A stretch of DNA of 54,342 bases from a bacterium. GTDB taxonomy: Bacteria; Patescibacteriota; Dojkabacteria; JAKAPS01; JAJZLI01. The stretch's first letter is position 1. Each line of letters begins with the position of its first letter. The position numbers and the translations under genes were made by a program. This document shows, one piece after another, positions 48,568 to 51,401 of this stretch. Below the pieces are notes generated by a model. It worked only from the letters and a program-made list of their open reading frames with translations, searched no databases and was not told where the DNA came from. Location of the stretch: contig DAIDGT010000002.1 of NCBI GenBank assembly GCA_027459825.1, forward strand, positions 18,288 through 72,629. Direction: 5' to 3'.

Positions 48568-49386
48568 TCATATAAAAAATATTGTATACACCAAATGTTG
48601 CAAGTATTGATAAAAAATTATATATAAAATAACTCCACAAGACAAGAAAGGACCAAAGGGAATCATAGATTTCATACTCTTTATTTTTAAAGATACTAGT
48701 AAAAGACCAACAACTGCCCCTACCAAGAAAGCAATAAATAGAACAAATATACTGGCAGGGTAACCAAAGATAAAACCAATAAGAAATGCAAGTTTCATAT
48801 CTCCTCCACCCATACCCTTGCCTTTAGTAATAATTATAACCCCAAGAAAAAAGAGAAAAGCTAGGATACCAATAAATAAATGCGATAATATTAATCCAAA
48901 AGGAATAACCCTTAGAGCTAATAGCAATATGAAGTAAATTAATGTAATTATACTTGAAATAATAATTAATCTATCAGATATTTCATAATACAAATAATCA
49001 TATAGGGCAATATATAAAAATATGCCAATAAATACGACAGAGTAGAGTAGATGTATAAAATTCACTGTTGAGAAATTGAATATCTGAGCAACCCCTACAA
49101 AATAGAAGTATGCAAAAAATACAATTGCAGATATTAGCTCTACAACAATATATTGATAAGATATTCTTTCTTTGCAATACCTACATCTACCCCTGAGGAA
49201 TAAAAAACTAAAAATAGGAATTAAATCCACAAAACCTAATACATGACCACATTTCGGACATGAAGACCTGCTCTTAATATAATCTTTTTTAATATTTACC
49301 CTATATGCAACAGCATTAATAAAACTACCTATACCAGCTCCAAATAAAAATGCAAGAACCAATATCTCAAAATATAATATAAACAT
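48568..49386 (-). CDS. pilD: Prepilin peptidase/methyltransferase PilD
   Basis: About 272 residues, polytopic. The N-terminal methyltransferase domain has two CxxC pairs (CPKCGHVLG and CRYCKERI). The aspartic peptidase sites are Asp in ALYDYLYYEISDRL and GGGDMKL in the second conserved motif. It cuts the G^F site of the five prepilins in this locus and N-methylates them. An ATG at 49404 would add six residues; 49386 is preferred because an extended -10 (TGTTATTCT) overlaps that ATG and ends 8 nt before 49386. Confidence 0.92.
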   Translation of the reverse strand: MFILYFEILVLAFLFGAGIGSFINAVAYRVNIKKDYIKSRSSCPKCGHVLGFVDLIPIFSFLFLRGRCRYCKERISYQYIVVELISAIVFFAYFYFVGVAQIFNFSTVNFIHLLYSVVFIGIFLYIALYDYLYYEISDRLIIISSIITLIYFILLLALRVIPFGLILSHLFIGILAFLFFLGVIIITKGKGMGGGDMKLAFLIGFIFGYPASIFVLFIAFLVGAVVGLLLVSLKIKSMKSMIPFGPFLSCGVILYIIFYQYLQHLVYTIFFI

Positions 49387-49394
49387 ACTACCTA

Positions 49395-49403
49395 AGAATA
49401 ACA
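49395..49403 (-). promoter_or_regulatory. Extended -10 for pilD
   Basis: Minus-strand TGT-TATTCT just downstream of the pilin terminator and 8 nt before the ATG at 49386, restarting transcription for pilD. Confidence 0.45.
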
Positions 49404-49422
49404 TATAAAAATAGAAATATAT

Positions 49423-49456
49423 ATAAAAAACAAGGGCTACAAAATGTAACCCTTTG
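49423..49456 (-). terminator. Intrinsic terminator after the major pilin gene
   Basis: Minus strand: stem CAAAGGGTTACA / TGTAGCCCTTG (one bulged A, one G-U) with a short T/A loop, followed directly by TTTTTTATAT. It lies 32 nt after the pilin stop and is the only convincing terminator I found in the window. Confidence 0.8.
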
Positions 49457-49487
49457 TCTATTTACTAAATAGTCTAAACACATCCTG

Positions 49488-50147
49488 TTAAAACCCAGTA
49501 CATGTTATAGTGTCACCTCCTGCAAATGTAATAGAATTACCACTTTGAGTAAAATTTGCATCAGTACTATTTGCAGTATATGCAAAAATTCCATTATTTT
49601 CCAAACATGCACCTACGATATAGGCATCAACAGCAGAAGGACTAGTCTTGTTAGGAGTTGTCCCTACAAATGGAATATAGAAATACTGTGTTGAATTACT
49701 AATAGATGAACTTCCAGTCATAATAGAACTAGCATTATAGGAAGTAGTCGTATCAGTAACAGACAACCCTGCTGGAGTTTGAGTACTATTACATGAAGTT
49801 GCTCCAACAGAAGGATTATAACCAGATCCTGCAGGATCAATTGTTGCGGCACAAATAATAGAATTTGTCGATTGAGCATTAACAATTGTCTTTCCAGGAG
49901 CAATTAATGATAAATACCCATTAGCAGTATCAAGAGACCAATTATTAGGATAAGTTTGGCCATTATTACCGTAAAATGTTTCAAACAGTCCAGCCATACC
50001 CTTAACAGCAGTTTCTCTTGCATTATTTCTTGCATCAGCTTGTGCTGCTCCAAGACCAATAATTGCAACTGCCATAAGAATACCTATTATCACCATAACG
50101 ATTAAAAGTTCTACAAGAGTAAAACCTTTCTTATTTTTTACCATCAT
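49488..50147 (-). CDS. Major type IV pilin
   Basis: 219 residues. MMVKNKKG^FTLVELLIVMVIIGILMAVAI with Glu5; conserved N-terminal helix and a Ser/Thr-rich globular domain ending with a Cys pair (GACLENN and TITCTGF) as in pilin D-regions. Inferred to be the major subunit because the gene has the only full Shine-Dalgarno seen here, a likely own promoter, and a terminator after it. It sits between pilC and pilD. Either of the first two ATGs can serve; 50147 is 7 nt from the SD. Confidence 0.92.
   Translation of the reverse strand: MMVKNKKGFTLVELLIVMVIIGILMAVAIIGLGAAQADARNNARETAVKGMAGLFETFYGNNGQTYPNNWSLDTANGYLSLIAPGKTIVNAQSTNSIICAATIDPAGSGYNPSVGATSCNSTQTPAGLSVTDTTTSYNASSIMTGSSSISNSTQYFYIPFVGTTPNKTSPSAVDAYIVGACLENNGIFAYTANSTDANFTQSGNSITFAGGDTITCTGF
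49999..50080 (-). repeat. 82-bp identical block shared by two pilin genes (copy 2)
   Basis: Second copy of the block at 48414-48495, within the major pilin gene. Confidence 0.9.
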
Positions 50148-50154
50148 ATTTATT

Positions 50155-50162
50155 CACCTCCT
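50155..50162 (-). promoter_or_regulatory. Strong Shine-Dalgarno for the major pilin
   Basis: AGGAGGTG on the minus strand, 7 nt before the ATG. It would pair over its full length with the usual 16S rRNA 3' end. No other gene start here has a comparable site. Confidence 0.9.
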
Positions 50163-50183
50163 ATTTACAGATACACTATATAA

Positions 50184-51401
50184 CTATTTTATAACATTTC
50201 CAAGCGTATATATTGGAAGATATACAGATATCCCAATAAATCCAACAACAACACCCAAAAATATAGTTATTATAGGTTCCATAATTTTAGATAAATTGTC
50301 TATTAGGCTTGCAGTCTCAGATTGATAATATTCAATAACCTTACCAACAACTTCTTCCATTTTACCTGTTTGTTCTCCAATAGCAACCATCCTCCATAAT
50401 AGAGGAGGGAAGTATTCTATCTGAGACATAACAGAAGAAATTGATCTACCCTTTTCAACCTCACCTGCTATATACCTAATACTTTCTTTAAAAACAACAT
50501 TTCCCATAGAATCTGCTATCATATTTAATCCACGAACAAGGGGCACACCAGATTTAACAAGTAGTATAAATGTTCTACCGAAACTAATTATTTGTAACTT
50601 CTGGAGTAGAGAACCTATTATAGGGATTTTTAAAAATATTTTATCTGTTACTTCTCTTCCCTTTGGAGTACTTCTATACCATATAGCAAGTATTGCTATC
50701 ACGACTAAAGCTATAACTATATATACCCAATATGCAATAACGAAATTACTAAAATTAATTAATATCTGGGTTGGTGCAGGAAGGTTAGCATTAAAACTAG
50801 CATATAACCCCTTCATAGGAGGGATCATTTTAGTTAAAACAATCGCAATTGCAACAATAGCAACACTAATAACAATAATAGGATACATCATCGCACTTTT
50901 AAACTTAGAGATTAAATCACTGGCTCTCTCTGTTTCGGTTGCAATCCTATCCAGGATATAATCCAGAGATCCTGATGCCTCAGCCGTTCTAATTAGCTGA
51001 ATTTGCATTTCAGAAAAAAGTTGAGTGTGGGGTGCAAAAGAATCCGAGAGGCTCTTACCAGATTCAACAGAAAACCCAACCTCTTTTAATATACTTTTTA
51101 AACCTCCATTAGTAACCTGAGCTTGAGCTATATTAATTGCTTCAACAATTGGAATACCGGAAGAAATTAAAACTGAAAGCTCCCTAAAAAAGATTACTTT
51201 GTCCTTGATAGGAACTTTACCAATATTTATATTATTTAAATTCGAGAAATTGAAATTAAAGGCAAAACCTTGCCTTATCTTCAAGGGAGACAACCCCTGA
51301 GATATAAGCATATTTGCAACAGTATCTCTATCTGCCGCACTAAAATTTCCTTTTACAATCTTACCATCTTTATCAGTTGCAGTATAAGTAAAATTTGCCA
51401 T
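50184..51401 (-). CDS. pilC: Type IV pilus inner-membrane platform protein PilC
   Basis: 405 residues. T2SS protein F family. N-terminal MANFTYTATDKDGKIVKGNF is typical, then two repeated GspF domains: FRELSVLISSGIPIVEAI with SGSLDYILDRIA, and GRTFILLVKSGVPLVRGLNMI with GEQTGKMEEVVGKV. Three membrane helices, the last near the C-terminus. It couples the PilB/PilT motors to pilin polymerisation. Two bases separate it from pilT. Confidence 0.95.
   Translation of the reverse strand: MANFTYTATDKDGKIVKGNFSAADRDTVANMLISQGLSPLKIRQGFAFNFNFSNLNNINIGKVPIKDKVIFFRELSVLISSGIPIVEAINIAQAQVTNGGLKSILKEVGFSVESGKSLSDSFAPHTQLFSEMQIQLIRTAEASGSLDYILDRIATETERASDLISKFKSAMMYPIIVISVAIVAIAIVLTKMIPPMKGLYASFNANLPAPTQILINFSNFVIAYWVYIVIALVVIAILAIWYRSTPKGREVTDKIFLKIPIIGSLLQKLQIISFGRTFILLVKSGVPLVRGLNMIADSMGNVVFKESIRYIAGEVEKGRSISSVMSQIEYFPPLLWRMVAIGEQTGKMEEVVGKVIEYYQSETASLIDNLSKIMEPIITIFLGVVVGFIGISVYLPIYTLGNVIK
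50188..50196 (-). promoter_or_regulatory. Candidate extended -10 for the major pilin
   Basis: TGT-TATAAA within the last codons of pilC. Transcription from about 50181 would give a ~34-nt leader carrying the Shine-Dalgarno. Confidence 0.45.

Follow-up and report, generated by a model that had tools for sequence, protein, structure and literature searches.

In the 54,342-nt stretch of patescibacterial DNA analyzed here (the window), a type IV prepilin gene located inside a pil cluster is preceded by a full Shine-Dalgarno (SD) sequence and followed by an intrinsic terminator, in a genome where SD use is at background level apart from about a dozen genes. We take this gene to be an expression cassette within the pil cluster and one of a small class of SD genes that encode mostly high-copy, small proteins, a reading to which we assign a probability of roughly 0.6. 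The sequence features themselves, their rarity, their conservation among relatives, and the co-occurrence of strong SDs with terminators are direct observations. In the proposed mechanism, an extended −10 promoter lying within the last pilC codons would probably drive transcription, supplemented by read-through, a short unstructured leader would present a full-length SD to the intact anti-SD, and the transcript would end at the terminator before pilD. Apart from the SD class, operon-leading genes would begin translation without an SD at the mRNA 5′ end or close to it, and the remaining genes would be SD-less internal cistrons; a cistron selectively equipped with a full SD would thus be initiated at a higher rate than those beside it. 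It is from sequence that we infer the start and end of the transcript, the higher synthesis rate, high expression, and the role as major pilin.

The pilin gene and its start signal

The pil genes are arranged on the minus strand in the order pilB (54223-52478), pilT, pilC, pilin, and pilD, followed by more prepilin-like genes. The pilin gene (49488..50147, minus strand) encodes a prepilin of 219 aa (Pfam N_methyl, 5.9e-10) and combines two features expected of a type IV major pilin, namely a class III signal (N_methyl) and a position beside pilC (50184..51401, minus strand; T2SSF platform protein, Pfam T2SSF, 6.1e-52) and the prepilin peptidase gene pilD (48568..49404, minus strand; Pfam A24_N_bact and Peptidase_A24). 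Judged from its SD and terminator, it is the probable major pilin of the locus; another SD-bearing type IV pilin is encoded on contig C1.

Read on the minus strand, the sequence before the pilin start is TAGGAGGTGAATAAAT-ATG, in which the SD AGGAGGTGA (50162-50154) is a 9-nt complement of the 16S 3′ end of the same genome, and AGGAGGTG is spaced 7 nt from the ATG at 50147. The 16S rRNA ends in ...GAATCACCTCCTTTT, which pairs perfectly with the pilin SD over 9 nt (ΔG −16.1), with the anti-SD intact. The leader reads ...GGAAATGTTATAAAATAGTTATATAGTGTATCTGTAAATAGGAGGTGAATAAATATG, and the start region is predicted to be unstructured (0 kcal/mol). The site is therefore a canonical SD in being purine-rich, complementary to the 16S 3′ tail, and placed 5-13 nt from the start, and it is kept in a second genome of the same genus (G001). 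No comparable SD was found at the neighboring genes: pilC and pilD lack a strong SD, and upstream of pilC there is only GAGGT at 14 nt. The preliminary description of this DNA, which had reported an SD 7 nt before the pilin ATG and none at its neighbors, was thus correct on this point. At the 16S 3′ end itself (contig C5:33957), the gene ends in GAATCACCTCC, the usual sequence being GGATCACCTCC.

Strong SDs are confined to about a dozen genes

The scan covered the genome in its 32 contigs (763,742 bp, 30% GC, about 90% complete), with gene starts taken from a simple coding-score caller and not from a trained gene finder; uL1 was found in this genome, and bL9 was not. For the 673 genes encoding 100 aa or more, an SD match of at least 5 nt is present upstream of 7.1% of starts versus 7.0% at positions 40 nt further up, and a pairing energy of −6 or below is reached by 7.3% of genes (positional control, 12.6%; shuffled sequences, 6.3%). 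The same pipeline applied to 100 kb of Escherichia coli as a positive control gave 43% versus 20%. The start regions are weaker than the positional control, and we discarded SD avoidance as the reason, since base composition explains the difference and the shuffled upstream mean is about equal. At the strong end of the distribution, only four genes of at least 100 aa reach −14 kcal/mol (those for bL12, the T4SS pilin, the window pilin, and the contig C1 pilin), with none in the control. When small ORFs are included, 15 ORFs have an SD match of at least 8 nt, compared with 1.4 ± 1.3 for permuted motifs; two matches with TTG starts were left out of the SD set. The whole-genome scan therefore did not turn up many other genes with an equally strong SD: near-full SDs are found at about a dozen of ~775 genes. 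One candidate, AAAGGAGG at contig C13:16608, was excluded because it is an arm of a terminator hairpin.

The near-full SD set comprises the window pilin, a second type IV pilin, the T4SS pilin, AtpE, bL12, bS21, HU, Hsp20, and a few small proteins; by Pfam name it contains AtpE, bL12, bS21, HU, Hsp20, T4SS_pilin, a zf_Tbcl protein, and a GreA-like protein. The claim that the SD serves bulk products holds insofar as most of these products are high-copy ones (AtpE, bL12, HU, bS21, Hsp20, and three pilins), and the richness of the class in multi-copy subunits counts in favor of the cassette. As a general rule it is too broad, given that the starts of EF-Tu, EF-G, GroEL, and DnaK were checked and lack an SD. 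It should also be borne in mind that the class was defined by sequence match and only then seen to be rich in high-copy proteins, "high-copy" being a judgment from known biology that was not blinded. Codon-usage bias, used as a proxy for expression, gave no signal for the SD set. The pilin itself scores at the 98.6th percentile, which is probably a regional effect, pilB and pilin2 scoring about as high. The SD-less starts of EF-Tu, EF-G, GroEL, and DnaK and the missing codon-usage bias both count against the cassette, as do a few SD ORFs for small proteins that may or may not be abundant.

The second type IV pilin gene (contig C1:111986-112411, plus strand) has a strong SD, AAAGGGGGTGG (ΔG −15.9), and a terminator, and its product may be the major pilin of another filament. 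The zf_Tbcl zinc-finger protein (contig C3:22791-23066, minus strand) was grouped with the abundant proteins because a near-full SD and a strong terminator are both present. As a separate observation, the SD-less genes for EF-Tu (contig C1), GroEL (contig C5), and DnaK (contig C1) share a leader rich in T and similar to TTTTATTTTAGTT, about 20 nt upstream of the ATG; other families of the class have comparable T-rich stretches in front of rplL, atpE, and pilin genes.

Terminators and their association with strong SDs

Behind the pilin gene, a stem-loop (49454-49432) followed by a T-run forms an intrinsic terminator (49425..49454, minus strand; AAGGGTTACATTTTGTAGCCCTT-GTTTTTT) with a predicted folding energy of −14.8 kcal/mol (z −4.2). 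In the sister genome G001, its stem is kept through base changes while the loop is new. The stem-loop and U-run described earlier behind this gene are borne out; the retention of both leader and terminator in the sister genome counts in favor of the cassette. A sub-threshold Rfam match to DapZ over the hairpin (E 0.006, 32 versus 56 bits) was taken as chance.

Across the genome, just 14 of 679 genes have a hairpin-T site that qualified and lies no more than 70 nt from the stop codon, compared with 4 in mid-gene controls, and strong terminators follow the genes for DnaK, GroEL, bL12, HU, the zf_Tbcl protein, the T4SS pilin, the contig C1 pilin, and the window pilin. Strong SDs and terminators co-occur, with five genes having both, nine an SD only, eight a terminator only, and 747 neither (odds ratio 52, p = 1e-6). 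Taken by itself, the pilin terminator is ordinary, since the pilin next to pilC commonly has a terminator behind it in this class, including in genomes where that pilin has no SD.

Start regions outside the SD class

Genes transcribed divergently show a TATAAT peak between −20 and −11 relative to the start codon. Alignment on these boxes places a TTGA at precisely 17-nt spacing in 15 cases, against ~1.7 expected, and a TGn in 50, against 2.3 expected, and this correct phasing with TATAAT makes the boxes look like real promoters. The leaders they imply are 0-8 nt long and fit the published description of leaderless genes (PMC3160421). A leaderless-type genome would be expected to have −10 boxes 10-14 bp before the starts of leading genes more often than by chance, and the TATAAT peak agrees with this. 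The sequences thus indicate that operon-leading genes are leaderless or nearly so. T occupies position −1 (UAUG) in 68% of divergent genes. Operon-internal genes have an A-rich stretch upstream and T at −1 in 57%; they are SD-less, and they cannot be leaderless. There are consequently at least three initiation situations, and the earlier picture of two modes with leaderless starts "by default" stands for the leading genes, with their boxes at −20 to −11 and phased −35 and TGn elements, and fails for the operon-internal ones. The two prepilin genes that follow pilD (window 48553 and 47862, minus strand) have near-identical upstream sequences with TTTTATATGAT at −19, which is a candidate leaderless-type promoter for each of them.

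A candidate promoter overlapping pilC

The last codons of pilC contain a candidate extended −10 element, TGTTATAAA (50188..50196, minus strand), whose putative function is read from its sequence and which is unchanged in the same-genus genome. The best −10 match, TGTTATAAA(AT), has p ~1e-3 per position as an extended −10 and is accompanied by a −35 box with 2/6 matches; the transcription start predicted from it is near 50181. The intergenic leader between pilC and the pilin gene (36 nt, 50148..50183, minus strand) and the last 21 nt of pilC show zero substitutions between the two same-genus genomes, the one change being an inserted A in the leader, whereas 118 of 406 third positions of pilC (29%) differ between the same two genomes. 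At comparable positions, −10 candidates are also found in some stand-alone SD genes: the T4SS pilin has one at −35 with 5/6 of a −35 box, Hsp20 has the promoter candidate TTGACA-17-TACAAT, and small SD ORFs have candidates at −38 to −40. The GTGTATCTG that the pilin and HU genes have in common upstream of their starts was dropped as a signal, there being 12 copies in the genome. Taken together, it appears reasonably probable that an internal promoter precedes the pilin gene. The promoter of its own that had been ascribed to the gene thus has a candidate in the end of pilC, and at p ~1e-3 with a 2/6 −35 box this candidate is suggestive only, a modest score that counts against the cassette.

This score also bears on the strongest competing explanation, according to which the pilin lacks a separate promoter and is transcribed as part of a longer pilB-T-C-A mRNA. 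The SD would then raise its translation and the terminator would limit transcription running on into pilD, in the manner of AtpE and bL12 within their operons. The −10 score is met by about 1 in 1,000 coding positions and comes with a poor −35, the gap behind pilC is short, and for atpE and rplL, which are SD genes inside operons, no strong promoter of their own was found just upstream. Conversely, the conserved block does not stop at the SD and extends back across the −10 candidate, and some stand-alone SD genes (T4SS pilin and Hsp20) have promoter candidates at similar distances. On balance, we consider a boost at the level of translation only a possible, though rather unlikely, account of the pilin locus.

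Conservation of the SD class among relatives

Gene by gene, the SD was looked for in relatives belonging to the same order (families f1 and f2) and is present at atpE (9/9 genomes), rplL (10/10, three of them with the G·U variant GGGGGTG), bS21 (10/10), HU (9/9, one with the weaker variant GGGGGCG), Hsp20 (9/9 loci read), the T4SS pilin (9/10), and the contig C1 pilin (8/8 loci read; orthologs in L291-L297 and L302), whose terminator is usually kept as well. Beyond the order, the loci read show no SD at atpE, rplL, Hsp20, or the T4SS pilin; HU retains its SD in family f6, and an SD is present at bS21 in G016. Genome-wide SD use is at background also in samples of G005, G009, and G010; the small sample from G009 did not show the leaderless-type TATAAT peak.

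That bS21 itself belongs to the class in all 10 genomes invites a second explanation, in which the SD genes form a regulon controlled by anti-SD availability, for example through a ribosome subpopulation without bS21, and the SD acts less as a signal of strength than as a regulatory tag. Selective translation of strong-SD mRNA by ribosomes that lack bS21 occurs in Flavobacterium johnsoniae (PMC9976891), and the lack of an SD at very abundant proteins such as EF-Tu would fit this idea. Against it, we see no evidence here of 16S tail sequestration, which in the Bacteroidia type involves bS21, bS18, and bS6, the bS21 of this genome aligns with that of F. johnsoniae only over residues 3-46 (E 0.002), the F. 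johnsoniae chain being covered over its first 47 residues and not in its C-terminal part, and the Flavobacteriales have a single SD gene, not a dozen. We regard co-regulation of this kind as decidedly unlikely. An extended version, in which this patescibacterial order has converted the SD from a general start signal to a selective mark on about a dozen subunits, mostly abundant ones, under joint control by anti-SD availability (e.g., via bS21), with new genes such as the pilin joining by gaining an SD, is a speculation that we hold to be unlikely as well.

The SD of the window pilin has a narrower distribution than the other members of the class. It is present in both genomes of the genus and at the pilC-adjacent pilin of the distant G009, and it is absent in six other genomes of the family, an absence that counts against the cassette; the simplest reading of these sequences would be a genus-level gain, the pilin being a recent recruit into an older SD class. 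The limitation to one genus of the family plus G009 could also suggest that the pilin arrived with its SD by recent transfer from an SD-using bacterium and has no special meaning here, which is very improbable considering that it occupies the same gene-order position as the pilins of its family, is ~50% identical to them, and is accompanied in the genome by a dozen further SD genes, whose conservation throughout the order in most cases shows that SDs are in native use.

Comparison with known systems

The cassette reading touches on the question of why SD-poor lineages retain a ribosomal anti-SD, for which the answer proposed in Bacteroidia is one or two self-regulating ribosomal genes. An order with strong SDs on a defined, mostly high-copy protein set would allow the SD to be studied as an on/off tag, as opposed to a graded, ubiquitous one, and ribosome density per mRNA on the SD set is a testable prediction. 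The SD might further serve as a sequence-only flag for abundant proteins in uncultured Patescibacteria, and gene finders that rely on SDs may misplace starts in such genomes. A literature search on SD use or leaderless mRNAs in Patescibacteria, with subscription journals largely outside its reach, found nothing on this pattern.

Regarding the pilus locus, Nanosynbacter lyticus TM7x (Saccharibacteria) is described as having two type IV pili, with pilA1, from a locus of the same make-up, and pilA2 as the most expressed pilins (PMC12206443). The likeness lies in a locus with pilB, pilT, pilC, pilD, pilM-like genes, and several pilins, together with a second pilC elsewhere in the genome; the difference is that expression was measured there and is only inferred here, and that no initiation-site pattern was seen in the passages of that study consulted here. 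Regarding initiation, Actinobacteria and Deinococcus-Thermus are mixed leaderless/SD bacteria (PMC3160421) that resemble the present genome in having a TATAAT-type box ~12 bp upstream of many starts, taken as leaderless, and SD genes besides. There, however, the SD genes are a large class, whereas the present genome is at background SD level except for about a dozen genes, and its operon-internal genes are SD-less as well.

The nearest known case is that of the Bacteroidia, and of the Flavobacteriales within them, whose SD-less genomes keep an SD essentially only on rpsU and/or rpsR (PMC9976891, PMC8710568). The genome studied here shares with them an SD level at chance genome-wide, an intact 16S anti-SD, and a strong SD on rpsU (bS21). 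It differs in that the SD is not restricted to rpsU and/or rpsR and extends to about a dozen genes, mostly for high-copy structural and ribosomal subunits plus a chaperone, and in that most transcripts of F. johnsoniae are leadered (PMC6847099), whereas the leading genes here look leaderless.
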